This document shows positions 1 to 21,758 of a stretch of 23,049 nt of DNA, piece after piece. The position numbers were made by a program, and so were the translations under genes. Each line of letters starts with the position of its first letter. Position 1 is the stretch's first letter. Origin of the DNA: a virus; the IMG/VR virus record IMGVR_UViG_3300042385_000662, positions 1 to 23,049 of that record. One strand, given 5' to 3'. Under the pieces are notes generated by a model. It made no database searches. It saw nothing but the letters and a program-made list of their open reading frames with translations, and was not told the origin of the DNA.

Positions 1-156
1 ACTAGACTTGATAAAGGTAAAAGTGAAATTCAAGCAACTTATCCATATGCTACACGTTTGGATGAAGGATATAGTCAACAAGCACCACAGGGTATGACTA
101 AGCCTACTGAAGATTTCATTAAGAAGCGTGTTAAACAAATATTGAGGAAGAAATAA
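1..156 (+). CDS. C-terminal end of a gp10-like tail completion/neck protein (partial)
   Basis: An open frame enters from the left edge and stops with TAA at 154-156, giving the last 51 residues. The segment with YATRLDEGYSQQAPQGM followed by a basic helix matches the C-terminal pattern I know from HK97 gp10-like tail-component proteins, where an aromatic-alanine-x-x-(L/I)-(D/E)-x-G-(Y/W)-S-x-Q-A-P-x-G-M stretch recurs. In that family the protein sits at the head-tail or tail completion interface and its gene lies a few genes before the tape measure gene. Its stop overlaps the tape measure start by one base (TAATG), and GAGGAAG inside its last codons is the ribosome binding site of the next gene. 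The family call is from motif memory on a fragment. Confidence 0.6.
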   Translation, partial: TRLDKGKSEIQATYPYATRLDEGYSQQAPQGMTKPTEDFIKKRVKQILRKK

Positions 157-2669
157 TGGCAGATCTAAATTATACAGTTGGCTTAACCGACACTGCTAGT
201 GCAAAATTAAAAACATTAGAAAACAATGTAAAGAAAGTTTCTGATAAATTTGCAGGATTAAAAAGCGCAGTAGCGGGTGTTGCATTTGGCGCAATGATTA
301 ACAATGCATTGCAGTATGCAGATGCAATACAAGACATTGCCAACGCAACTGGTATCGCTACACAAAACATTCTTGGCTTTAGTAGTGCTGTTGCAAATAA
401 TGGTGGTCAAGCCGATGACGCACAAAAGGCTATACTAAAATTAGCAACAACAATTAATGATGCGGCATCTGGTAGCAAGTCTGCACAATCTGCATTTGCT
501 GACGTAGGTGTAACATTAAAAGACCTTAGTACATTAAGTGAACAAGACATTCTTAAGAAAACAATTGATGGTCTTGCTAATATTGAAGATGCAAGTAAAC
601 GTGTTTCATTATCAGCCGAATTGTTAGGAAAAAGTTTTCGTGGTGTAGACGTAAAAGGTTTAAGTAAAGAATACGCTAACGCTGTTATACAAAGTCGTGA
701 ATACGCGGCATCAATAAAAGCAGCCTCTGAAGCACAAGACAGATTAGATAGAACAATAAATCAATTTAGACTTAGTTTGCTTCAATCACTGAAGCCATTA
801 CTTGATTTTATGGCTACATTGAAGCCAGAAGATATCAAACGATTCACAGATGCATTAGTACAAATTGGGGGCGCAGCCGCAGGCCTCGTTGTAGTAGTAA
901 AAGCATTCCAAGCATTAAGTATAGCAATTGCCGCGATTGCATCATACTTTACTTTAGCCGCTGCTGGCGTACTAAGTTTACAAAAAACATTAAGTGTATT
1001 AGGATATCAAGTAGGTAAATTTGTAGCAGCCTTTGCAGCCGCGATAGGCGTGATGGGCAAATTTAAAGAAGTTGGTGTATTCATCTTTACACTACTAACT
1101 AAGAGATTAGGTTTCTTGCTAGTCGGTTTAGCAAAACTTACACCAATTATGGCTGCTGTATCAACAGCCATATGGGCAGTAAATGAAGTTGTAAGAATCG
1201 CATTTGGTGTAGACTATATTGACAAGTTTACAACTGGTGTTGGTAAGGCTTACGATAAATTTAAACAATTTATTGGGTTAGGAGACGATAAGCCTAAGTT
1301 GCCATCAGGTCCAACTGGTGGCAGAAGCATGACCAGTGAGCAAATTAAAGAAATTCAGGCTTATGGTCAAGCACAGATGGATCAGTTCAACCAAGAACAG
1401 ACCATTAAACGTCAAGCCACTGATGCATGGGCAAAACAAACACAAGAGATTGTAAAACAAACACAAGCATACAAAGATCAAAATAACGAACTTATCAAAG
1501 CAGTAGGTATAGAAGCCAAGTACTTGGGAATGAATGAAGATGTAGTTGAAGTACTACGTGCCCAAGCAGAATTGATGATTCGTACTCAACAAGCGGTAAA
1601 ACAATTACAAGATCAAAAGGCTGCACTAGCAGAAGAAGATAAGAAACTAATTCCTATCATTGATGCACAAATAGCCGCAATTCAGAAACAGTCCGTCGTA
1701 GATAAAGAACGGTTAGCCGTTGCAATTAGTGGATTACAAGCCGCACGTATATTAGAAAAAGATAGACTAAACGCTATTGAAGCAATCACTAAGCAAATGG
1801 AACGCCAAGCAATGTTGGGCGATCAACTACGTGCCGCTAATGACAAGATGCGTGATGTAATGTACGAAACAAGTACAATGAATCTTGCACCATTGCAAAA
1901 ACAATATGCAGACATTAATGAAGAAGCACGTAAAGGTGCATTAGAAGCAAGTCGTGCATTTGCAGCCGGATTTGAAGATGGTGGTGATGGTTTAAGCCCA
2001 GAAAGGGCTAAAGAATTAGCAGATGGTTTAGATCAAATTCAAAAAAGATATAAAGCAATTGCCGATCAACAGATTAAAAACTTAGAAGTATCACGTTCAT
2101 TTGAATATGGTTGGAAGCAAGCATTCAATAGTTATGTTGATAGTGCTACAAATGCTGCCAATCGTGCAAGAGATATATTCAGTTCAGTGACAAGCAACAT
2201 GAATTCATTAATTGATAATTTTGTTGAGACTGGTAAATTTAGTTTCGGTGACTTTGCTGAATCAGTTATCAAAGACTTGTTAAAGATTGAATTGAAAGCA
2301 GCCACTATGGACTTATGGAGAATAATGAGTGGCGGCGGAGGTGGCGGCGGAGGTGGCGGCGGAGGTGGTGGCGGCAGTATATTAGGCACCCTATGGGATT
2401 GGGGAAAGGGATTGTTAGGATTCGCTAATGGTGGCAATCCCCCAATTGGTCGTGCAAGTCTTGTTGGTGAGAATGGTCCTGAGTTAATCACACCACGCGG
2501 TGCTACAACAATCACACCAATGGGTGCAGGTGGTGGCGCAACATATTACATAACAAACAACATCAGTGCTATAGATTCTAAAGGTGTTGCTCAATTGTTT
2601 GCAGAGAATCGTAAAATATTATTGGGTAATGTTCGTATGGCTGAAAAAGAAATGCCATCACGCAGATAA
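156..2669 (+). CDS. Tail tape measure protein
   Basis: 837 residues. The protein sets tail length inside the tail tube and is thought to pass into the host envelope during DNA injection. Visible layout: a polar alpha-helical N-terminus; hydrophobic segments at roughly residues 238-275 and 287-345, typical of tape measure proteins; a long charged, glutamine-rich helical region at about 400-640; a segment with TGKFSFGDFAESVIKDL near 695-712, which resembles the lambda tape measure C-terminal domain; a run of 15 glycines at 726-740; and the common C-terminal block with FANGGNPP, GRASLVGENGPELITPRG. At about 0.15 nm per residue it would fit a tail of roughly 125 nm, close to lambda (gpH is 853 residues). 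The start overlaps the upstream stop (TAATG) and is preceded by GAGGAAG. Confidence 0.95.
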   Translation: MADLNYTVGLTDTASAKLKTLENNVKKVSDKFAGLKSAVAGVAFGAMINNALQYADAIQDIANATGIATQNILGFSSAVANNGGQADDAQKAILKLATTINDAASGSKSAQSAFADVGVTLKDLSTLSEQDILKKTIDGLANIEDASKRVSLSAELLGKSFRGVDVKGLSKEYANAVIQSREYAASIKAASEAQDRLDRTINQFRLSLLQSLKPLLDFMATLKPEDIKRFTDALVQIGGAAAGLVVVVKAFQALSIAIAAIASYFTLAAAGVLSLQKTLSVLGYQVGKFVAAFAAAIGVMGKFKEVGVFIFTLLTKRLGFLLVGLAKLTPIMAAVSTAIWAVNEVVRIAFGVDYIDKFTTGVGKAYDKFKQFIGLGDDKPKLPSGPTGGRSMTSEQIKEIQAYGQAQMDQFNQEQTIKRQATDAWAKQTQEIVKQTQAYKDQNNELIKAVGIEAKYLGMNEDVVEVLRAQAELMIRTQQAVKQLQDQKAALAEEDKKLIPIIDAQIAAIQKQSVVDKERLAVAISGLQAARILEKDRLNAIEAITKQMERQAMLGDQLRAANDKMRDVMYETSTMNLAPLQKQYADINEEARKGALEASRAFAAGFEDGGDGLSPERAKELADGLDQIQKRYKAIADQQIKNLEVSRSFEYGWKQAFNSYVDSATNAANRARDIFSSVTSNMNSLIDNFVETGKFSFGDFAESVIKDLLKIELKAATMDLWRIMSGGGGGGGGGGGGGGGSILGTLWDWGKGLLGFANGGNPPIGRASLVGENGPELITPRGATTITPMGAGGGATYYITNNISAIDSKGVAQLFAENRKILLGNVRMAEKEMPSRR
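2331..2375 (+). repeat. 12-bp tandem repeat encoding a poly-glycine run
   Basis: GGCGGCGGAGGT occurs three times in a row (2331-2366), followed by GGTGGCGGC. It encodes 15 consecutive glycines in the tape measure protein, between the helical region and the C-terminal block. The unit is a multiple of three, so slippage would change the linker length without breaking the frame. Its GC content stands out against the AT-rich surroundings. Confidence 0.9.
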
Positions 2670-2679
2670 GGAAACATAA

Positions 2680-3363
2680 ATGAGTATTCAAACAATTATA
2701 AACAACTGTACGGGTATCGCAATTGACCGTAGAAAAATGGTTGGTATACAAATTACTCGCAGTGAAATACCGCGTGTGAGTCTAACTCCTACAACTAATC
2801 CATGGCGCTTTACATTAACAATGCCAAATAGTTTGCGCTATAGCGAAGCACGTGAAGTTATTGAAAGTCTAGATACATTAGATCGTGTGGGTAGTGAAGT
2901 AATTACATTTAACAATGCACCACAAATGAGATGGATCTTTCGTTATCAAGGACAAGCATTGACAAGTCAATTAGCAAACATTCGTGTTGTAAGTTTTATT
3001 GGCAATCAATTGACATTGAACGCATTACCTATCATGGGTGCAACACAAACATTGTTCGCACCTAACGATTTGATTCAGATTGGTAACTATCCTTATCCAT
3101 TCACCAGTACTACAACAGTTTTGCGTGGTACTGGATCATCAGTAATAGTAACAACAAGTCGTCCAAACATCTTAACAAACGATGTCACTGCATCAGCAAT
3201 TACAGTAGGAGCAGGATGTCAGTTCAGAGTATTCAGTCCTAACATGCCAACATATAAATTGTTCCCTGGTGGCGCACTTTATCAAAACGGTAGCGTTATC
3301 AATAACGCTTATATAGAATGGTCAGATGACTTTCAACTTTATGAATATGTGAGTTTAGCATGA
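2680..3363 (+). CDS. Distal tail-like protein
   Basis: 227 residues, directly downstream of the tape measure gene behind AAGGAAACATAA. The N-terminal third has an arginine-rich beta pattern (IDRRKMVGIQITRSEIPRV, then a strand with NPWRFTLTMP). A later part with LTLNALP and APNDLIQIGNYPYPFT looks like a beta-barrel insertion of the kind that anchors to the tube, and the end is tyrosine-rich. Position and size match the protein that follows the tape measure protein in siphophages (lambda M, or DUF2460-like gp12 in gene transfer agents), which caps the tube and carries the hub. The assignment rests mainly on gene order and beta-rich composition, since no single diagnostic motif is recognised. 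Its stop overlaps the start of the next small gene (ATGA). Confidence 0.65.
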   Translation: MSIQTIINNCTGIAIDRRKMVGIQITRSEIPRVSLTPTTNPWRFTLTMPNSLRYSEAREVIESLDTLDRVGSEVITFNNAPQMRWIFRYQGQALTSQLANIRVVSFIGNQLTLNALPIMGATQTLFAPNDLIQIGNYPYPFTSTTTVLRGTGSSVIVTTSRPNILTNDVTASAITVGAGCQFRVFSPNMPTYKLFPGGALYQNGSVINNAYIEWSDDFQLYEYVSLA

Positions 3364-3539
3364 TAGAAGAAACAACACAAGTACAAGCATTACAACGTAG
3401 TGAGTTTAAAAATACTCAACCGCGCACAAACAAATCGCCAGCAAAACTACATGAGTTGCATTCAAAAGATTGCACTAAGTGTGGTAAGAAAATGGTTAAT
3501 GGCGAATGCGTAGATTGCAATAAAGTACCTACACTATGA
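3360..3539 (+). CDS. 59-aa four-cysteine (zinc-ribbon-like) protein in the tail tip operon
   Basis: A small frame filling the gap between the distal tail and hub genes, with ATGA overlaps at both ends (start 3360 over the stop at 3361-3363; stop 3537-3539 over the next ATG at 3536). Residues 1-35 are polar and probably unstructured. Residues 36-55 carry CTKC and, nine residues later, CVDC (cysteines 38, 41, 50, 53), the spacing of a small zinc ribbon or another metal site. The double overlap implies translation coupled to its neighbours. Lambda gpL, the protein in a comparable position, holds an iron-sulfur cluster in its C-terminal domain, so a metal-binding role at the tail tip is a reasonable guess. 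The protein could instead be an unrelated regulator. Confidence 0.75.
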   Translation: MIEETTQVQALQRSEFKNTQPRTNKSPAKLHELHSKDCTKCGKKMVNGECVDCNKVPTL

Positions 3540-4156
3540 CAACAGTAATTCCACAAGTAGAAAATCAACCATATGTTTACAACGCAGAGTTTGTAAAGAT
3601 GGTCGTTACCAAAATGGACAACACTACAGAAACTTATACATTCAGTTCAAGTTATAAGGTTGAAACTATTGATGGTGTTGAGTATACGCCATTAGGTGGT
3701 TTGATGAGTGTTGGTTTACAACAACGTGATATGCGTGTGTCAACGTTTGATACCACAATTGCTATTAGTGGCATTGGTCCCGAAAACATCTATGCAGTAT
3801 TAGCAACAAAGATTAAGGGCAGTTTAATTACAATATATCGTGGGTTCTATACAAACAACTATATATTAGATAACACTGTACTTAGATTCAATGGGATCAT
3901 TACAAGTTATGCAATTACTGAAGATATTGATTTTGATGAAAAATCTGATACATTTACAATTTCATTAAATTGTAGTGCATTTAAAAGTGTGTTAGAACAA
4001 CGTATTGCAGGTAGACTAACAAGTCCTAACTATTGGAATCAATATCCTGATGCACCAACATTATCTGTAGACAGTTCAATGATAAATGTACCTAATTTAG
4101 TTAACGCATTCTTTGACTTTGGTAAGCAAGTTACCAATTCAGGAACATCATCTTAA
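3536..4156 (+). CDS. Tail hub/minor tail protein (DUF2163- or lambda-L-like)
   Basis: 206 residues, all beta in appearance. Features I associate with the small distal hub proteins of siphophages and gene transfer agents are YTPLGGLMSVGLQQRD near residues 51-66, LITIYRGFYTNNY around 98-110, LRFNGIITSYAITED with an acidic turn around 117-131, and the C-terminal block RIAGRLTSPNYWNQYPDAP with an aspartate-serine-x-met motif near 180. The last block resembles the conserved end of this family, in which a short pattern of arginine, proline-aspartate and D-x-S-M precedes a phenylalanine-rich tail. It contains a single cysteine (in SLNCSAFKS), so it lacks the family's cysteine cluster. The four-cysteine protein encoded just upstream may supply that function. 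No ribosome binding site is visible; translation is probably coupled by the ATGA overlap. Confidence 0.65.
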   Translation: MTTVIPQVENQPYVYNAEFVKMVVTKMDNTTETYTFSSSYKVETIDGVEYTPLGGLMSVGLQQRDMRVSTFDTTIAISGIGPENIYAVLATKIKGSLITIYRGFYTNNYILDNTVLRFNGIITSYAITEDIDFDEKSDTFTISLNCSAFKSVLEQRIAGRLTSPNYWNQYPDAPTLSVDSSMINVPNLVNAFFDFGKQVTNSGTSS

Positions 4157-4166
4157 GGAATAACAA

Positions 4167-7100
4167 ATGAGTTTTTTTGATTGGGTATCAGACAAAATAT
4201 CAGACGCATTGGAAATTGAAAATCCAATACTAAGAGCCGGCGTAGGACTTGCAACACGTTTAGTTGCTACGACAGCAGTTAGTAGTTTGATTGGTAATCG
4301 TGCGTCACAGAATAAACCCTCAGGTAGTCCGCCTGCAGGTTCACAAAGTGTAAGAGCAACAACAGGTAACAGAGTACAGTTATCAGCAAGTACCAATAAT
4401 AAAATCAGTGTACTATATGGTTCTGCATGGGTAAGCCCTGCATTAACTGATGCAAAGATTTCAACAGACCAACAAGTTACATGGTACGTAATGACGTTGG
4501 CAGAAGCAACTGATAATGGTGTATATACCATGGGTAACATTGACAGTCCAACTACTACTGATATCTATTGGGGCGATAAACAATTGATATTTGGAGATGG
4601 TGGAAATAGAAGTAAAGTCACTAAATGGATTAACGGCAATGGTGATGAAGATACAAAAGTAAATGGATTTATGAATGTATATTTGTTCCCAAGTGGTTCG
4701 TACTCAGGTGTTAATACAGGTGGATTATCAGCAATTCAAATTATGAGTGATCCAAGTATTCCTGCTGAACAACGTTGGAATGGTTCTAGATATAGTACAG
4801 GTATCAACACACCTAACATGTACAAGACTGCATTTGCAATCGTCAAGTTAACATACAACCAAGACGCAGGTATTATTGGATTAGATCAATTCAAAATGAA
4901 ATTGACTAATGATTTAACAAAGCCTGGTTCAGTTATACTTGATTACTTTACTAACACACGTTATGGTTGTGCAGTACCAGAAGAACAAATTGATTTGGCT
5001 GCATTGATAGAGTTAGACAATTACAGTGATGAGTTGATTACATACACACCAGTAGGTGGTGGTAGTGCAACACAACCAAGATATCGTATCAATGGCCCAA
5101 TTGACACAGGTACAAACTGTTTGACTAACTTACAGTTTATGGTTGATAGTTGCGACAGTTGGTTGCAATGGAATGAAGCATTGGCAAAATGGTCAGTTAT
5201 TCCAAATAGAAGTTACTTAGATTATACAACATACGATGATTTGTTCCAAATCAATAGCAATAATATAGTTAGTGGTATCACAATCAGCCCTGTTGATTTA
5301 AACAGTACATACAACACAATGGAAGTTCAGTTCCCTAATACTAAAATTAGAGATGAACGAGATTTTGTATTTGTCACATTGGATGAAGAAGATGAAAATC
5401 CAAATGAACCTGTTAACAAACTTATCATTGAGTTACCAATTGTAAGTAGTAGTGTTCAAGCCAAGTATCTTGCAACACGTAGATTGATTCAAAGTCGTGA
5501 AGATTTAGTTGCAACATTTGAAATGGATTATTCTGGAATACAAATCAATGCTGGTGATGTAGTTCGTATCAGACACGAAGCATATGGATGGGGACCAACT
5601 GATGTTGATCCACTAGCATTAGACAAACTATTTCGTGTTGACCAAGTACAAGAAGAAAAGAAAAGTGACGGTACATTAGGTGTACGTATCAGTGCGTTTG
5701 AGTATAACAATCAAGTATATGAAAACATTGACATAAGTGATTACGATCCAGCAGAAAATACAGGATTAAGTGATCCAACAATTGTTGGCACACCAGACGC
5801 ACCAACGATTACAGACATAAATGAAGAATCAGGAACATTTACTGTACAAGCAATAGTACCAAGTCCCGGCCAAGTGATCGCATTAGAATTTTGGTATGGG
5901 CCTACCCCAACAATCGTAGACAACAATTATTTGTTATGGGATACACAATTGAATGGTACAACGCCTGTGTATCCTGCAGGCACTGTTGAATCTACAGGCG
6001 TTGTAGGATTTCAACCCGGTGATTACTATTGGGCAGTTCGTGCATTGACACAAACAACAAAAAGTAGTTTTAGTAACTCAACAAGTCAAGCATGGAGTCC
6101 AGCACAACCCGCAAGTCGTACAGTGTGTGAATCATTACCATCAGCGGCAATAAGTTTTAGTAATTTATATAAACTATGGGCAACTGATAGTAGAGGAACA
6201 GTATTGAATTGTGATTATACACCAGTGCAAACAGGATCAGACGCAGGTGGACAACCAACAAGTCAAATAGATTTAGCAATGGGTATAACAAACTATACTG
6301 CAGGAACTAGCACAGGCTTAGTTGCTGAAATATGGCAAGCAACAGATAGTTGGTCATATCCTATTCAAGCCATGGCGTACGGTGGACCTGCAGGATTTGT
6401 ATTTGCTACTGGTACAGAATTACACTCAACCGGCAACATAGAAGGTGAAGATAGTGCTAACCCAATAACATATGAACAATTTGTTGATCAATCCACCGAG
6501 GTCGTTAATGGTATCGTGTATGGTGGTGGAAAATATGTAGCAGTTTGTAATAATGGATTGATTTATTACAGCACAACAGGATATGATGGTTGGACAGCGG
6601 CTACTGTGCCCGGCAGTGCAAGTTCAAATACTTTTTGGGCAGTAGCGCATAATGGAACTATATTTGTAGCAGTTGGTGGAACATTTAGTTCTGTAGGAGC
6701 AGGTACAACATATATTTGTTCAAGTACTGATGGTATAACATGGACACAAAGAAATAGTACAGCACCTAATGAGTTGTATTGTGTTGCATGGAATGGTTCA
6801 TATTTTACTGCTTTAGGTGCAGGGTTCACACAAGCCATAAGTAGTGATGGTATAACATGGACAGTAAGTCTTGTGGCTGGCGGTAGTAGTTACAGCATTA
6901 ATGGAGTAACGTATAATAGTACCAGTGGATTATGGATTGCAGTTGGTCGTACCGGTAGCAATAGCGTTATATTAACTAGTCCAACTACAGTTACATGGAC
7001 ACTTAGGTATACAGGATTCGCCATTGGCGAATTCCTTGGGGTTGCTACTAACACAGCATCATTTAATCATACAGTGGCTGCGGGTTCAAAATCTGAACTA

Positions 7101-7517
7101 GTAACGAGTAATGATGGTGGACTATCATGGGTTGATTCAGGACTAACTGGAACACATACATGGTACACTGTACAGAATTTAAATGGTGCATTCTATGTTA
7201 TGGGTGATGGTTCAGTTACTAATTACATTGCACCAATCGCATCATCATTAGCATTTGATATAATTAATATTTGGGAAACGTTTCGTATATTTACATATGG
7301 TGCAAGTCCATCAAGTGCATATGACTTGACAATTCAACCAATACAAGATCAAATGCCAAATAATATTCCTTTCAATTACACATTTAGAACGGGATCATAT
7401 CTAGCAGGTGTTCCATTGAAATATCTACTAGTAGCAGGTAATTTAAACAATCCTGCAACACCAAGCACGACATATTCAACTCGCAAGAGTATTGCGATTA
7501 CGGAATTCAGAGGTTAA
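4167..7517 (+). CDS. Central tail tip/attachment protein (J-like) with C-terminal Asp-box beta-propeller
   Basis: 1116 residues behind AAGGAATAACAA. The first 150 residues include a short amphipathic N-terminus and a block (SASTNNKISVLYGSAWVSP) typical of phage tip proteins. Residues about 310-515 look like the phage-tail_3/tip-J hub domain (VQAKYLATRRLIQSREDL, then INAGDVVRIRHEAYGW and LFRVDQVQEE). A fibronectin type III-like domain follows at about 540-650. Residues about 765-1015 form several blades of roughly 45 residues, each with an Asp-box or remnant: STDGITWT, SSDGITWT, SNDGGLSW, alternating with GKYVAV, GTIFVAVGG, GLWIAVGR. The C-terminal 80 residues are a separate beta domain. The hub would close the tube and the propeller would face the host. 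Asp-box propellers occur in sialidases and adhesins; no catalytic set was identified, so binding is more likely than cleavage. Confidence 0.85.
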   Translation: MSFFDWVSDKISDALEIENPILRAGVGLATRLVATTAVSSLIGNRASQNKPSGSPPAGSQSVRATTGNRVQLSASTNNKISVLYGSAWVSPALTDAKISTDQQVTWYVMTLAEATDNGVYTMGNIDSPTTTDIYWGDKQLIFGDGGNRSKVTKWINGNGDEDTKVNGFMNVYLFPSGSYSGVNTGGLSAIQIMSDPSIPAEQRWNGSRYSTGINTPNMYKTAFAIVKLTYNQDAGIIGLDQFKMKLTNDLTKPGSVILDYFTNTRYGCAVPEEQIDLAALIELDNYSDELITYTPVGGGSATQPRYRINGPIDTGTNCLTNLQFMVDSCDSWLQWNEALAKWSVIPNRSYLDYTTYDDLFQINSNNIVSGITISPVDLNSTYNTMEVQFPNTKIRDERDFVFVTLDEEDENPNEPVNKLIIELPIVSSSVQAKYLATRRLIQSREDLVATFEMDYSGIQINAGDVVRIRHEAYGWGPTDVDPLALDKLFRVDQVQEEKKSDGTLGVRISAFEYNNQVYENIDISDYDPAENTGLSDPTIVGTPDAPTITDINEESGTFTVQAIVPSPGQVIALEFWYGPTPTIVDNNYLLWDTQLNGTTPVYPAGTVESTGVVGFQPGDYYWAVRALTQTTKSSFSNSTSQAWSPAQPASRTVCESLPSAAISFSNLYKLWATDSRGTVLNCDYTPVQTGSDAGGQPTSQIDLAMGITNYTAGTSTGLVAEIWQATDSWSYPIQAMAYGGPAGFVFATGTELHSTGNIEGEDSANPITYEQFVDQSTEVVNGIVYGGGKYVAVCNNGLIYYSTTGYDGWTAATVPGSASSNTFWAVAHNGTIFVAVGGTFSSVGAGTTYICSSTDGITWTQRNSTAPNELYCVAWNGSYFTALGAGFTQAISSDGITWTVSLVAGGSSYSINGVTYNSTSGLWIAVGRTGSNSVILTSPTTVTWTLRYTGFAIGEFLGVATNTASFNHTVAAGSKSELVTSNDGGLSWVDSGLTGTHTWYTVQNLNGAFYVMGDGSVTNYIAPIASSLAFDIINIWETFRIFTYGASPSSAYDLTIQPIQDQMPNNIPFNYTFRTGSYLAGVPLKYLLVAGNLNNPATPSTTYSTRKSIAITEFRG

Positions 7518-14841: not shown

Positions 14842-15357
14842 ATGACATCAAGATTCCCACTTATTATTAATTCTGGAGTACAACAAATACAAGAATTGCC
14901 TTCAGGTGATGACCTAGATTTAACTGGTAGTAATATCAGCAATGTAGGTAATATTACAGTCGCTACAGTCGCAACCATGGCAATAGGTAATATAACAACT
15001 GTAAATATGACAACTGCTAATCCAGCAAATATTAATTTAGTTAAATTTGGTGAAACAGTAATTTCAGGTGGCTCTACAGGTGCAGTAACACTTACACCAA
15101 ATGCAGCCGCAGGTACAATCTATAAGTATACTTTGACTGGCAACATTACACTTAGTACTTTATCAAATGCTGTCGCTGGTACAAGTATGACAATCATTTT
15201 AAATCAAGATGCTACAGGTAATAGAATATTGACAAGTACAATGAAATTTAGCGGTGGAGTAAACGTATTAACAACTACTGCAAATGCAATAGATGTTATG
15301 AGCGTGTTTTACGATGGCACAACTTATTATGCAACATTAAGTAAGGGATATGCATAA
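14842..15357 (+). CDS. Short fibre shaft/cap protein 3
   Basis: 171 residues. It begins with SRFPLIINSG and IQELPSGDDLDLTGSNISNV, an attachment-type N-terminus that I recognise from aquatic phage fibres, then a short strand-rich stem (residues 35-72). From residue 74 there is a cap domain (ISGGSTGAVTLTPNAA, YTLTGNITL, DVMSVFYDGTTYYATL) that ends the protein. The gene at 16079 has the same architecture and very similar sequence, including a 53-base identical block. The cap also resembles the end of shaft 1 in its NGAILY/NGNISL-type strands. Its stop overlaps the next gene's start by one base, pairing it with the lectin-type tip at 15357. No strong ribosome binding site precedes it (AAAGAGAAAATAT). 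Confidence 0.75.
   Translation: MTSRFPLIINSGVQQIQELPSGDDLDLTGSNISNVGNITVATVATMAIGNITTVNMTTANPANINLVKFGETVISGGSTGAVTLTPNAAAGTIYKYTLTGNITLSTLSNAVAGTSMTIILNQDATGNRILTSTMKFSGGVNVLTTTANAIDVMSVFYDGTTYYATLSKGYA
15062..15114 (+). repeat. 53-bp exact repeat, copy A
   Basis: Bases 15062-15114 are identical to 16332-16384, at the beginning of the cap domain in two paired fibre genes 1270 bases apart. Flanking DNA is similar but not identical. Confidence 0.9.
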
Positions 15358-16058
15358 TGTTTAGTGCAAGAGGTGGATTTTTAGGCAGTGCAACAACTGG
15401 TGATCCATATTGGTCTAATGTTGAAATGTTACTTACTGCTAGAACGGGTACTTTAGTTGACGCGGCAAAAAGTGCGGCAATAGGTGCTTCAACTGGTGCT
15501 GGGGTTACTATATATGGTAGTCCCGTAAATTACAATCCATATAGTTTTGGTCAATCAAGCACTGCAAGATGGAACGTAGCGGCATATGCTCCTAGAAGTG
15601 CCGCAGGTGTTTTTACACATGAATTTTGGTGGCGTAGTATGGGATTATCTGCCGCATCAGCATTTGAAGTTGCATGGATGATTAATCCGATTGATCCAGC
15701 CGCCGGTGGTATTATTGGACAGATCGGTACAACAAATACTAATAGATGGAGTATTAATAACATTGGTGGTACTAATTATATTTTCACTACTTTAAATGTA
15801 TATGACCAACAATGGCATCATGTATGCTTTACTAGAAATGCTAGTAATCTAATGACTTTTTATTATGATGGTATTGCAGCCGCAAATACGGTGACTAGTT
15901 CACTTACATTTACATTTGGTAATCAAATGATTTTTGGTGGTAGTGGTGGTGCAGATAATTTTTCAAATAGTTATTGGGATGATATAAGATTAACAATAGG
16001 TGTATGTAGATATACAAGTAATTTTACACCACCAGTAGGACCATTACCAATTGGATAA
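15357..16058 (+). CDS. Fibre tip/adhesin 2, single LamG-like lectin
   Basis: 233 residues. The N-terminus MFSARGGFLG repeats the F-x-A-R-G element of the other tip genes, followed by TGDPYWSNVEMLLTAR, the usual entry of concanavalin A-like/LamG domains in phage proteins. The domain shows WHHVCFTRNASNLMTFYYDG around residues 147-166, the strand pair that defines LamG folds, and closes with IRLTIGVCRYTSNFTPP, a widespread signature of this group. It starts in the stop codon of the cap gene (TAATG 15355-15359). LamG-type domains bind carbohydrate or protein ligands, so a receptor-binding role at the fibre end is inferred. One domain is present, against three in the gene at 16627. Confidence 0.75.
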   Translation: MFSARGGFLGSATTGDPYWSNVEMLLTARTGTLVDAAKSAAIGASTGAGVTIYGSPVNYNPYSFGQSSTARWNVAAYAPRSAAGVFTHEFWWRSMGLSAASAFEVAWMINPIDPAAGGIIGQIGTTNTNRWSINNIGGTNYIFTTLNVYDQQWHHVCFTRNASNLMTFYYDGIAAANTVTSSLTFTFGNQMIFGGSGGADNFSNSYWDDIRLTIGVCRYTSNFTPPVGPLPIG

Positions 16059-16078: not shown

Positions 16079-16627
16079 ATGGCAACAAGTAGATTTCCGC
16101 TAGTAGTTAATACAGCAACAAGTAGAATTGCAGAACTTCCTGCAGGAGATGATTTAGATTTATCTGGCAGTGACATTAGTAATGTAGGTAATATTACCAT
16201 CGCCGGTACTATATTTGGTACATTAACAAGTTTATCTGTGTCTGGAACTATATCCGGTGGTAATATTACTATTAGTACTGGTACAGCAAATCTAGCAAAT
16301 TTAGTAACTATTAAATACAATGAGACAGTAGTTTCAGGTGGCTCTACAGGTGCAGTAACACTTACACCAAATGCAGCCGCAGGTTCTATTTACAATTATA
16401 CATTGACTGGCAACATTACACTTAGTAGTTTAGCAAATGCCGTGGCCGGAACAAACATGACAATTATACTAACACAAGATGCCACTGGTAATAGAACTTT
16501 AACAAGTACAATGAAATTCCTAGGTGGCACAAAAACATTATCAACTGCCGCAAATAGTATAGATATAATGAGTGTGTTCTATGACGGAACAACTTACTAT
16601 GCTTCACTAGGAAAAGGATTTGCATAA
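16079..16627 (+). CDS. Short fibre shaft/cap protein 4 (paralogue of 14842 gene)
   Basis: 182 residues behind AGGATACATAT. N-terminus SRFPLVVNTATSRIAELP with GDDLDLSGSDISNVGNITI aligns residue by residue with the protein at 14842. A slightly longer stem (GTIFGTLTSLSVSGTISGG) follows, then the same cap (VSGGSTGAVTLTPNAA, YTLTGNITL, DIMSVFYDGTTYYASLGKGF). The cap is the best conserved part at DNA level, which suggests that it is the shared docking surface for different tips. The stop overlaps the start of the triple-lectin tip gene by one base. This is the clearest paralogue pair in the window and shows that the adhesin cassette was duplicated as a unit. Confidence 0.75.
   Translation: MATSRFPLVVNTATSRIAELPAGDDLDLSGSDISNVGNITIAGTIFGTLTSLSVSGTISGGNITISTGTANLANLVTIKYNETVVSGGSTGAVTLTPNAAAGSIYNYTLTGNITLSSLANAVAGTNMTIILTQDATGNRTLTSTMKFLGGTKTLSTAANSIDIMSVFYDGTTYYASLGKGFA
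16332..16384 (+). repeat. 53-bp exact repeat, copy B
   Basis: Identical to 15062-15114, covering the first part of the cap domain of the second short fibre gene. Confidence 0.9.
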
Positions 16628-18663
16628 TGTTTGCATTCAGAGGTAATTACATAAGTTACAATGGTGGTGTTACGCCTCCACCCGGTGGAGATCCATATTG
16701 GACAAATGTCTCAGTATTGATAAACAATGAAAACCCCACCGGGGCTTTTAATGACTCAAGTACTAATAAATTTTTAGTTACCGTATCTGGAACTGCTAGA
16801 CCAAATGAACGAACACCATTTGCTAGTGGTGCAGGTGGAAGTATACGAATTGATGGAACAACTGCTAGCCAAGTTATAATTCCACAAAATGTAGATTTTA
16901 ATGCGGCGAGCAATAATTTTACATTAGAAGGTTGGGTATTCATACCTAGTTTTCCTGGAAACAATTTAGAATTTTTTGCTATTGCTACCAGTGCAGCCAG
17001 TATTGGACAGGCAACTGCTCGTATTGTTAGCACTAATGCTGGTGCAGTTTTCTTTTTATGTAACAATGCAAGTAATGGTTGGATTAATACTAGCACTACT
17101 ACTGCAGGTACGTTAACAACAAATACATGGTATCATCTTGCCGGCGTAAGGAATGGTTCGTCTTTTGTTTTATATGTTAATGGTGTAAGCAGATTAAGTT
17201 ATACTTATGCTGGCGTAGTAGGATATTTAGGTACTAATTCAACGCACATAGGTAATTTACCAGTTGGTACAGGTTTTACTGGCGCAAATAACTGTTTTAT
17301 ATCTAATGTAAGATGGGTTAATGGAACTGCCATTTATACTAGTGCATTTACTCCACCCACAAGTCCATTGACTGCTGTTACAAACACTAAGTTATTACTA
17401 ACATTTACTGGGCAAGCGTCACAATCCACTACTACTACCATTGGTGCAGCAAATTATTCTATAGTAGACACCGGGCCTAATGGATACCCACTTTTAATGA
17501 CTACAAGTCCAGGACATAGTGGTATAAGTCCATTTGGAAATGAATATCCTGGTAGTGTGGCATATACTGGTTCACAAGGTATGTGGATAGGTGCAACTGC
17601 TAGTGCAAATTTTGCATATGGTACACAAAATTTTACTATTGAATGTTGGGTGCAATTTACTAGTGTAGGAACATTACAATATATAATTGACCAACGAAGC
17701 GCCAGCACAAGTATTTGTCCATCAATATATCTTAACACTGATAATAAAATATATTATTATGTAAATGGTTCAAATGTAATTACTAGCACTAATACAGTTA
17801 CAACTGATACATGGTATCATATAGCAGTTTCCAGATCTAGTAGTAATACAAAAATGTTTATAAATGGTGTGCAAGAAGGATCTACCTATAGCGATAGTAA
17901 TAATTATGCTAATGCAAATGCTAGATTTGGTGTTGAATTTACAGCCAATTCAAATTATTTGAATGGCTATCTTAGTAATATTAGATTAAGTAGAGGCTTT
18001 AGTTATTACACTAGTGATTTTACACCGAGTACTATACCATTAACGATAAGCACTTTATATACATTGGCTTTTATATCAGGACAAAATGCTGCAACATATA
18101 ATCTTAGTAATTATCCTAAACCTTACGTAGGTGCCAGTTCAATATTAAGTAATACACAAAGTGCATTTGGCACACAAAGTTTATTTTATAATGGCGCAAC
18201 TACTACAGCAATTATAGATGATATAAGCGTGCGATTTGGTACTGGTGATTTTACAATTGAGGGTTGGGTCTATAGAAGTAGTGCAGGGGTACAACATGGA
18301 CTATTGAGTAAGGGAACTGCAACACCAAGTTGGGAACTTAGAGTTAATACTAGTAATCAACTACAATTTTTTTCTAATACGTCATTGTTGTTAACAGGTG
18401 CTACAACTACTATTCCAGCAACAACATGGACATATTTTGCAGTAACTAGAAGTGGTACAACATCGTACTTATTTGTAAATGGTACATTACAGGCTAGTGC
18501 TACTGATAGTACTGATTATTCACAAACTAATAATATTTTTATGGGAAATACCACAGCAGGTGGATACTTAACAGGATATTTAGATGAAGTACGAATTACT
18601 AAAGGTATCGCTAGATACACTGCAAGTTTTACAGCACCCACAAGTGCTTTTCCAACTGATTAA
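16627..18663 (+). CDS. Fibre tip/adhesin 3, three tandem LamG-like lectin domains
   Basis: 678 residues. It starts MFAFRGNYIS (the shared tip element), then a short linker TPPPGGDPYW leads into three concanavalin A-like domains. Domain 1 (about 22-250) has FTLEGWVFIP, WYHLAGVRNGSSFVLYVNG and the closing IYTSAFTPPTSPL. Domain 2 (about 255-475) has FTIECWVQF, WYHIAVSRSSS, MFINGVQEG and YYTSDFTPSTIPL. Domain 3 (about 477-678) has FTIEGWVYR, WTYFAVTRSGTTSYLFVNG and ITKGIARYTASFTAPT. Each domain has the F-T-(L/I)-E-x-W and W-x-x-(L/I/F)-A-V-x-R signatures of the LamG fold. It overlaps the preceding shaft gene by one base. Three different lectin domains on one tip suggest multivalent or multi-ligand binding. 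Confidence 0.8.
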   Translation: MFAFRGNYISYNGGVTPPPGGDPYWTNVSVLINNENPTGAFNDSSTNKFLVTVSGTARPNERTPFASGAGGSIRIDGTTASQVIIPQNVDFNAASNNFTLEGWVFIPSFPGNNLEFFAIATSAASIGQATARIVSTNAGAVFFLCNNASNGWINTSTTTAGTLTTNTWYHLAGVRNGSSFVLYVNGVSRLSYTYAGVVGYLGTNSTHIGNLPVGTGFTGANNCFISNVRWVNGTAIYTSAFTPPTSPLTAVTNTKLLLTFTGQASQSTTTTIGAANYSIVDTGPNGYPLLMTTSPGHSGISPFGNEYPGSVAYTGSQGMWIGATASANFAYGTQNFTIECWVQFTSVGTLQYIIDQRSASTSICPSIYLNTDNKIYYYVNGSNVITSTNTVTTDTWYHIAVSRSSSNTKMFINGVQEGSTYSDSNNYANANARFGVEFTANSNYLNGYLSNIRLSRGFSYYTSDFTPSTIPLTISTLYTLAFISGQNAATYNLSNYPKPYVGASSILSNTQSAFGTQSLFYNGATTTAIIDDISVRFGTGDFTIEGWVYRSSAGVQHGLLSKGTATPSWELRVNTSNQLQFFSNTSLLLTGATTTIPATTWTYFAVTRSGTTSYLFVNGTLQASATDSTDYSQTNNIFMGNTTAGGYLTGYLDEVRITKGIARYTASFTAPTSAFPTD

Positions 18664-20362: not shown

Positions 20363-20391
20363 TTGACATTTGTTTTCAATTAGTGTACTAT
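20363..20391 (+). promoter_or_regulatory. Sigma70-type promoter of the 69-aa gene, leaderless start
   Basis: TTGACA (20363-20368), 17 bases, TACTAT (20386-20391). The expected start of transcription, about 7 bases further, falls at or next to the ATG at 20399, and there is no ribosome binding site. It is divergent from the promoter at 20270-20298, with 64 bases between the two -35 boxes. GTTGT/ACAAC inverted repeats at 20309-20327 could be an operator. Confidence 0.65.
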
Positions 20392-20398
20392 ATACAAC

Positions 20399-20608
20399 AT
20401 GTATGAAAAAATATTGACTAAAACAGAAAAAAGACTTGTAGACATTGCCATTGTACGCAACAACTACAAGACCTTTGACCGTTCTATTTTTATTAATGCT
20501 TGTCAAACATTTATGCCCAAAAAACGCTGTGAACAATTACTTGTTGATAATCAATTGGCTTACATTGATTACGTAAAAGATTTATATCGTTCTATAAAGA
20601 AAAGATAA
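20399..20608 (+). CDS. Small basic hypothetical protein
   Basis: 69 residues, helical and basic (MYEKILTKTEKRLVDIAIVR, then AYIDYVKDLYRSIKKR). No known domain is recognised; size, charge and predicted early-type promoter fit an early phage protein or small DNA-binding factor, but this is only inferred. The start is fixed by the promoter, whose expected start site coincides with the ATG. The stop codon (20606-20608) lies inside a GATAAATA motif. Confidence 0.6.
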   Translation: MYEKILTKTEKRLVDIAIVRNNYKTFDRSIFINACQTFMPKKRCEQLLVDNQLAYIDYVKDLYRSIKKR

Positions 20609-20611
20609 ATA
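20604..20611 (+). promoter_or_regulatory. T4-late-like promoter motif GATAAATA ahead of the large RNA
   Basis: GATAAATA overlaps the stop of the 69-residue gene. Transcription about 6 bases downstream would start near 20617, the first base of the first RNA stem (GTGTG 20617-20621 with CGCAC 20640-20644). Confidence 0.45.
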
Positions 20612-21258
20612 ATACTGTGTGAAACATTTGAACTTGTGACGCACAATACTCTCAATCAGTATAGAAGCCCCGGGGAAGACGAGCCCCGGGCTTCGCTTAT
20701 CGTCAAAGAAAATGATTGAGAATGGTAACTGATTGATGAGTTTACTATGTACTTTACAACATAGCGAGATTCCGTTCTGATGTGTGACGGTTGCGAAGTG
20801 AAGGTCAGCACTGATTTTACAAGACATATAACCACATGAAGTTGTGGATGCCTTAAACTAACTTCTCACTTGAAGAAAAGTTTCTTGTAATCTTAATGGT
20901 AATGATGTAGAAATACACTTCAAGTATGCCGAGTCATAGTAATAGCGATAGAGGGCTCGGGCTAGTTAAATGAATCCCAATGATTCAATCATTTAACAAT
21001 AGCGAATACGGTAACTTCTCGTAAGAGTTTGTGAGATATAGTCAATCCTCCACAGTCATAGTTATGAATCATTGTCGCACCCAGATCTGGGCCTCAAGAA
21101 AAGTATTTTTCAGCCGAGTAGATTTTATATCTACTCGCCTGTGCCTAAGAAATGTATATAACAACACCGAACAAATAAACAATTATAGTCTTTCCTAAAT
21201 AGCACGAACAAACGAAGTTTGTGATGTGCTAGTCCTGAGCGAAGCGATTAGGACTTTA
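20612..21258 (+). ncRNA. Candidate large structured noncoding RNA (about 640 nt)
   Basis: No credible protein gene lies between 20609 and 21329. Instead there are dense inverted repeats: TCTCAATCA/TGATTGAGA (20650-20658 with 20713-20721) enclosing GAAGCCC and GGGG paired with CCCC and GGGCTTC (20664-20694); CTATGT/ACATAG (20745-20764); CCACA/TGTGG (20832-20847); ACTTGAAG/CTTCAAGT (20868-20925); CCGAG/CTCGG (20929-20960); GTTAAATGA/TCATTTAAC (20965-20997); CCCAGATCTGGG (21080-21091); CGAGTAGAT/ATCTACTCG (21115-21137); AGCAC plus ACAAAC paired around a GAA loop (21201-21230); AGTCCT/AGGACT (21231-21255) followed by TTT. Size, phage context and ornate local folding resemble large phage RNAs such as GOLLD and ROOL, but I cannot match a family consensus by eye. 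The strand is inferred from the upstream GATAAATA motif. Confidence 0.65.
21231..21258 (+). terminator. Terminal hairpin of the large RNA
   Basis: AGTCCT (21231-21236) pairs with AGGACT (21250-21255), and GC-GAA-GC can form inside the loop. It is followed by a short T run only (TTTAATAA), so it is a weak intrinsic terminator or simply the 3-prime stem of the RNA. Confidence 0.35.
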
Positions 21259-21329
21259 ATAACCAAAAACATATCCTTATTTGATACTTTTATTCATTTA
21301 TCATTAAATATTTTATGTAAGGAACAATT

Positions 21330-21758
21330 ATGCATAAAATACTATACGATGTCAAAAATACAAGTGCAACTACCACATATATGTCAATAAGTAAAACAAA
21401 TCTTGACTATCTACAAAGTCAAATTATATCAATTCAAAGTTACATGAGTGAACTAAGTCTATGTCCAAATCAAGACGTTAAAGATTTACTTAAGTGGTAT
21501 CAAAAGCCATCAAAGACATTACCTTTTCATAGTAAATGGAAGAAACACAATAGTCCTCAAAGTTTTATTGCAGGTACACTAAACAATCTCATGTACAATG
21601 GACAACAAGATTTAAGTCTAATGCAAGCAGAACATTTACAAAACATCATCAACAACTTTGTAGCATTAATGGACGCATTACGTGAGATGAAGATAGACTT
21701 ACAAAAGAACAACATAATGGACACGATTATGTTTACAGAAAATTTATGGACAACATAA
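21330..21758 (+). CDS. Hypothetical protein
   Basis: 142 residues with TAAGGAACAATT before the ATG. Mixed polar helices; segments include YLQSQIISIQSYMSEL, DLLKWYQKPSKTLPFHSKW, and a C-terminal helical stretch with LMQAEHLQNIINNFVALMDA. No transmembrane segment, catalytic motif or known domain was recognised. A TTAAATA sequence 20 bases before the start (21304-21310) is a one-base variant of the late-like motif. It begins a run of small + strand genes with short spacing. Confidence 0.6.
   Translation: MHKILYDVKNTSATTTYMSISKTNLDYLQSQIISIQSYMSELSLCPNQDVKDLLKWYQKPSKTLPFHSKWKKHNSPQSFIAGTLNNLMYNGQQDLSLMQAEHLQNIINNFVALMDALREMKIDLQKNNIMDTIMFTENLWTT

Follow-up and report, generated by a model that had tools for sequence, protein, structure and literature searches.

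A predicted bistable leader and a large structured RNA with covarying helices at an early-gene junction of a phage

The window analysed here is a stretch of 23,049 bases that makes up the whole of the virus record IMGVR_UViG_3300042385_000662, from an uncultured phage. Its genes comprise a tail module, running from the tape measure to fibre-like proteins, a spanin, small minus-strand genes and, after the segment described here, small plus-strand genes. That this segment contains no protein gene, as an earlier note on the sequence had claimed, was borne out by inspection of the open reading frames (ORFs), which found no credible protein gene in 20609–21329 and short overlapping frames only. Upstream, a 69-aa ORF (20399–20608) without a family match lies between a promoter candidate and the leader (Table 1). 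Downstream, ORF 21330 (21330–21758) follows the junction in the window as well as in the relatives L180, L181, L205, L387 and L370; its family has no assigned function (no Pfam match, a weak match to phrog_9615). The inverted repeats that had been pointed out are present, as are the nested stems and the hairpins that close the segment (21200–21231 and 21231–21255). The segment folds with an energy of −175.7 kcal/mol against −150.3 ± 7.5 kcal/mol for dinucleotide shuffles (z = −3.4), more stably than 20 of 20 of them, and its complementary strand gives z = −2.7 by the same measure. A search of the window against Rfam 15 returned no family at the gathering level and matched neither of the RNAs described below; with relaxed E-values the segment gave chance-level matches to unrelated eukaryotic and viral families only, and blastn against phages and plasmids returned chance-level matches only.

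The collection of homologues was built on exact seeds. Queries with the LamG-type and fibre-like tail proteins retrieved unrelated phages only, and the small protein encoded downstream gave no locus when used alone and three loci as a profile. The long tail-tip protein (4167–7517) led to sister phages, whose early-gene junctions carry a homologue of about 130 nt to 20604–20740 and no large RNA. A conserved 16-mer of this leader led to L205, in which a second, separate match covers window positions 20726–21161 (77% identity, E = 9e-84) and a DUF5710 gene (PF18974) lies between the two. With a 16-mer from the second element 23 matching loci were found, including L205 and two duplicates, and the final set holds 22 distinct sequences with the window, or 19 once near-duplicates of more than 97% identity are dropped. 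Other approaches were less productive: a pattern on the 3′ arm of hairpin P3 gave mostly chance matches, and a genome scan with an 18-mer of the large RNA gave 11 matches, none homologous. The model of the large RNA found no match in 398 genomes of one bacterial phylum, a weak test limited to eight scored candidates per genome. The open-access literature yielded no previous account of this RNA.

The segment is made up of two elements, referred to as RNA A (the leader) and RNA B (the large RNA), because relatives carry the leader alone (L179, L180, L181), RNA B alone (large phages) or both separated by a gene (L205, L387, L349, L370). The proposal of a single RNA of about 650 nt was therefore right in that the RNA is structured and wrong in treating it as one unit, since a leader of ~137 nt, a core of ~430 nt and two further 3′ hairpins can be told apart.

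Table 1. Predicted features of the junction, in window coordinates
Feature	Position	Strand	Basis
Promoter candidate TTGACA-N17-TACTAT, upstream of the 69-aa ORF and the leader	20363–20391	+	consensus match, 10/12
RNA A, predicted bistable leader, GATAAATA to end of copy 2	20604–20740	+	homologues in seven relatives
RNA A hairpin P1, UGUGUG/CGCACA, loop with GAACUUGUG	20616–20645	+	conserved in window, L179, L181, L205
RNA A 5′ switch strand CUCAAUCAGU	20651–20660	+	pairs with copy 1 or copy 2, 8/8 leaders
RNA A hairpin P3, apical loop GACGA (20678–20682)	20664–20694	+	leader alignment
RNA A small hairpin P4, loop UCGUC (20700–20704), kisses P3 loop	20696–20708	+	loop complementarity
RNA A copy 1 UGAUUGAG, closes three-way junction	20713–20720	+	cis pairing energies
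RNA A copy 2 ACUGAUUGAUGAG	20728–20740	+	cis pairing energies
RNA B, large structured RNA with 3′ hairpins, roughly 430–540 bases	20724–21255	+	homologues
RNA B core	20724–21154	+	22 distinct sequences with window; covariation
Helix PA (20729–20733/20804–20808), encloses pseudoknot and hairpin	20729–20808	+	5/5 pairs with two-sided changes
H-type pseudoknot inside PA	20738–20741/20751–20754 and 20745–20750/20759–20764	+	pseudoknot search
Hairpin inside PA	20772–20790	+	
Helix C (20818–20823/20885–20890) and inner hairpins	20818–20890	+	6/6 pairs two-sided; 83% of cells paired
Long-range helix UCUUA-AU-GGU (20891–20900)/GCC-UAAGA (21143–21150), closes 3′ domain	20891–21150	+	87.5% of cells paired, changes mostly one-sided
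Helix I, loop AGUAAYAGCGAUAGAG (20938–20953)	20929–20960	+	6/7 pairs two-sided; 100% of cells paired
Helix J	20961–21003	+	8/11 pairs with two-sided changes
Hairpin L, loop AUAUAGUCAAUCC	21029–21055	+	4/7 pairs with two-sided changes
Hairpin O, GCCGAGUAGAU/AUCUACUCGCC	21113–21139	+	93.9% of cells paired, sequence mostly conserved
Two 3′ hairpins, UAGCAC/GUGCUA and AGUCCU/AGGACU, probable 3′ end	21200–21255	+	predicted in window fold

RNA A was examined in a hand-made alignment of eight leaders, those of the window, L179, L180, L181, L205, L387, L349 and L370. Where P1 is missing, other hairpins take its place. All eight leaders contain a strong P3 followed by a small P4, and the loops of the two hairpins are complementary over 5–9 bp, a fit equalled by 12 of 40,320 permutations. 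The predicted kissing pairs include GACGA/UCGUC, UUGCGG/CCGCAA, UUAGCGU/ACGCUAA, AUUGCA/UGCAAU and UCUGACGG/CCGUCAGA, among others. RNA A thus takes the form of two kissing hairpins enclosed by a closing helix. A mechanical descriptor of this anatomy, drawn up when five leaders were available, recognised four of these and about 17 other places in 8.6 million bases (both strands counted). The first gene behind the leader varies among relatives: in the sister phages it is a gene of 517 aa after short frames, one of 248 aa, or a DUF5710 gene. The 517-aa and 248-aa genes (L180 2472–4025 and L181 1337–2083, both on the minus strand) have no family match.

Two sequence copies further downstream are each complementary to the strand on the 5′ side of P3. 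Pairing in cis has a mean energy of −12.1 kcal/mol for copy 1 and −13.4 kcal/mol for copy 2, against −5.7 and −5.75 kcal/mol respectively when the partners are swapped between phages. In a permutation test with the windows of the two copies explicitly separated, the true assignment of partners was the best of 40,320 for copy 1 and again for copy 2. Folds in which one or the other copy is blocked differ in energy by −2.7 to +1.9 kcal/mol. In most relatives the purine-rich ribosome-binding region of the first early gene lies within copy 2 or directly next to it (GAUUUUAGAGGAG in L181, ACAUUUAGGA in L370, CGACUAAAGGAU in L349); L387 is the weakest case, its copy 2 not clearly covering a ribosome-binding site. 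A translational switch is recognised by two mutually exclusive helices, one of which hides the ribosome-binding region. The leaders are predicted to form such helices at nearly equal energies, with an overlap that is clear in most relatives, weak in L387 and without a gene behind it in the window. As judged from its predicted pairings, RNA A is a new bistable leader with the anatomy of a translational switch, and it probably functions as one. In the switching direction that we infer, the 5′ strand and copy 1 would close the kissing-loop three-way junction in the on state and leave the ribosome-binding region free. The off state would have the 5′ strand paired with copy 2 and the region hidden. 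RNA A would act in cis, at the start of the block of early genes.

The put sites of phage HK022 provide the comparison for a leader that acts on transcription, by antitermination or attenuation, and not on translation. The leader heads the early block whatever the first gene may be, as an antitermination site would, and such a role is a serious minority possibility. It is made less likely by the position of copy 2, which in most relatives lies on or next to the ribosome-binding region, and by the compensatory change that has kept the copy 2 pairing; both argue for the translational switch. The purine riboswitch resembles RNA A in its closing helix, two hairpins and kissing loops, and translational riboswitches, of which it is an example, also share a switch helix that competes with a second pairing. 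The junctions of RNA A differ, being only 0–5 nt long, and therefore leave it without a purine-type pocket. With these junctions and no Rfam match, the purine riboswitch was rejected as the identity of RNA A.

Among the forward matches close to the leader in the window, the promoter candidate in Table 1 scores best; the scan as a whole gave no more matches than shuffled sequences do. The 69-aa ORF that follows it appears to be inserted, because in L387 a TTGACA box directly precedes the leader. The sequence GATAAATA (20604–20611), which the earlier note had taken to be promoter-like, is conserved at the 5′ end of the leader in several relatives and is at most a putative promoter element. In L180 and L181 a −10-like TATAGT occurs just upstream, so that GATAAATA would sit at about the start of transcription. 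A scan for terminators found none with a clear U-run.

RNA B has an elaborate structure for which the covariation is overwhelming. Over the central 142 columns of the 19-sequence alignment 96.8% of cells form standard pairs and 21 of 30 pairs show two-sided changes. None of 500 shuffles reaches any of five measures, and sliding the partners by 1–3 columns reduces pairing to 36–46%. For the whole core (482 columns, 100 pairs) the corresponding values are 91.2% of cells paired and 52 pairs with two-sided changes, again with 0 of 500 shuffles as good. An automatic search gave an H-type pseudoknot solution in 19 of 19 sequences with a register that agrees in most; L397 and L379 count for less here, because their best-scoring solution differs. 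The loop of helix I served as the search seed, so that its invariance follows from how the sequences were found; the covariation comes from helices outside this loop. Some pairs are U-G throughout or nearly throughout the alignment, and read from the opposite strand they would become A-C; this identifies the plus strand as the RNA. The two 3′ hairpins are near-identical in L387, and hairpins of other sequence are found at this place in several members. On the plus strand of RNA B the longest stop-free stretches encode 32–64 aa and are not the same between homologues. Conservation of reading frames in place of base pairs had been named beforehand as the result that would speak against an RNA; it is the base pairs that are kept, which favours one. 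The suggestion of a large ornate phage RNA is thereby strongly supported, by homologues as well as covariation.

The 21 other distinct homologues of RNA B come from two unrelated groups of phages, with one copy per record, always intercistronic and on the gene strand. In small siphovirus-like phages it follows the DUF5710 gene (L205, L387, L349, L370, L354) and in most precedes the ORF 21330 family. In large phages, with records of up to 239 kb, its usual place is between mazG (PF03819) and a neck gene, the head-tail adaptor Ad2 (phrog_211), and the alignment core usually starts 12 or 25 nt past the stop codon of the preceding gene. No match was found in the searched sister records G001–G014, several of which are fragments whose lack of a match is not proof of absence, or in five cultured jumbo phages whose neck gene is homologous (Atu_ph07, XaC1, PA5oct, Phosso and Munch). 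ARAGORN detected no tRNA or tmRNA in the window or in 26 loci. Two of the records with RNA B contain other known RNAs, all on the minus strand: a freshwater-2 RNA in L355 (9274–9351; RF02980, 56.5 bits), and group I introns at 76814–77005 and 82180–82414 in the L418 record (G027; 69.3 and 56.1 bits, over the Rfam cut-off).

The covariance-model comparison proposed in the earlier note (GOLLD, ROOL, group I intron, Rfam) gave no match to RNA B. In a gathering-score search of 17 loci with RNA B against Rfam 15 no family was found at either RNA. The models of GOLLD (RF02032) and ROOL (RF03087) did not match RNA B at E 10 in four records, nor by cmscan, and their sole hit (4.6 bits) was a chance one elsewhere; no hit exceeded the cut-off in the control genomes, so that these searches exclude ordinary members, not very remote ones. 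The group I intron model (RF00028) found none at RNA B in four records and detected the two L418 introns, which served as an internal control. An intron that interrupts a gene was rejected as RNA B lies between complete genes, and a tmRNA or tRNA as ARAGORN did not recognise one. The alternative of a divergent GOLLD or ROOL member or a new class is thus decided, as far as covariance models can tell, for the second: RNA B represents a new class of large structured phage RNA that is not in Rfam.

GOLLD, from lake metagenomes, and ROOL, which contains pseudoknots and measures 659 nt for env-120, are large, ornate, phage-encoded RNAs of unknown function that are frequently located near tRNA genes and assemble into RNA-only nanocages (PMC12286853). 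RNA B shares with both the phage setting, the large size and the ornate structure, and with ROOL also the presence of a pseudoknot. It differs from both in having no model match and no location near tRNA genes, from ROOL also in its length and helices, and from GOLLD in that the latter often exceeds 800 nt. The ~800-nt RNA of ICP1 and the long noncoding RNAs of phage K are abundant and without ORFs, and have been compared with GOLLD and ROOL by their authors (PMC7567579, PMC9241854). RNA B is similarly predicted to be a large phage transcript without an ORF; it differs in that model R1 finds no match in ICP1 and a chance-level match only in phage K (12.1 bits, E 1.7).

On balance it is likely that the locus combines a bistable leader acting in cis with a new, intercistronic and probably trans-acting large RNA. 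Both RNAs would be transcribed, RNA B being freed from the operon transcript by processing or termination and then kept as a stable RNA. By analogy, it most likely works like GOLLD and ROOL as a member of neither. Its flanking genes differ and RNA B is kept, which favours the role in trans. RNA B could instead be a cis-acting intercistronic element for the expression or stability of a neighbouring gene, and not a free RNA, as its place between genes, on their strand and in large phages at the distances from the stop codon given above, would fit. We consider this rather unlikely, because the genes on both sides differ between phage groups, its size and complexity are far above those of known intercistronic elements and it has 3′ hairpins of its own.

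A mobile element of the ribozyme or intron type, capable of self-cleavage or splicing, would account for the intricate fold with its pseudoknot and for a patchy occurrence in unrelated phages combined with absence from the close relatives of the window phage. It is nevertheless improbable: the model that finds both introns of L418 does not find its RNA B, no intron or ribozyme family in Rfam is matched, and neither an interrupted gene nor a linked endonuclease is seen beside it. Remote membership of GOLLD or ROOL, suggested by the similar size, phage setting and ornate structure with a pseudoknot, is very improbable given no model match at E 10 in four records and no tRNA genes at 26 loci. The reading as a decayed protein gene or as structure arisen by chance, for which the 248-aa and 517-aa genes found there in two relatives before the homologue of ORF 21330 might be cited, is refuted by the covariation and also has the homologues and the lack of a conserved open frame against it.

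The arrangement in the window brings the leader and the large RNA together. The DUF5710 gene is missing between them, copy 2 coincides with the 5′ strand of helix PA and the pseudoknot of RNA B, and there is no gene for copy 2 to control directly. A frame of five codons from ATG 20747 lies inside the pseudoknot, and its start codon is not conserved (CUGUGU in L387). The leader duplex has an energy of −16.7 kcal/mol with copy 2 against −12.2 kcal/mol with copy 1, and in the unconstrained fold of the segment the leader is paired with copy 2. As copy 2 also forms the 5′ end of RNA B, the first helix and pseudoknot of RNA B can face competition from the leader, which, going by overlap and energies only, may delay or permit the folding of RNA B. 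That a riboswitch-like leader, its gene gone, has come to gate how a large ornate noncoding RNA folds is a speculative and doubtful reading; were it true, the switch would control a noncoding RNA directly. Few large ornate RNAs are known from phages (GOLLD, ROOL), none with an assigned function. RNA B offers a defined structure, 22 distinct sequences, two unrelated phage groups and a clear operon position, which make comparison and genetics possible. The leader has comparative evidence for two competing helices, each maintained by compensatory change, and so lends itself readily to tests of RNA switches in phages.

Elsewhere in the window, 14842–16058 and 16079–18663 contain two tandem gene pairs that resemble a duplication. 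ORFs 14842 and 16079 are alike at their start (SRFPL..ELP.GDDLDL.GS.ISNVGNIT), and the proteins that follow them match the same PHROG families (3545, 24074 and 13163). The proteins of a contig from another sample, L150 (6126 bases, sample 3300034117), are 99.8–100% identical to those of window 156–6050, and it therefore represents the same phage seen twice.
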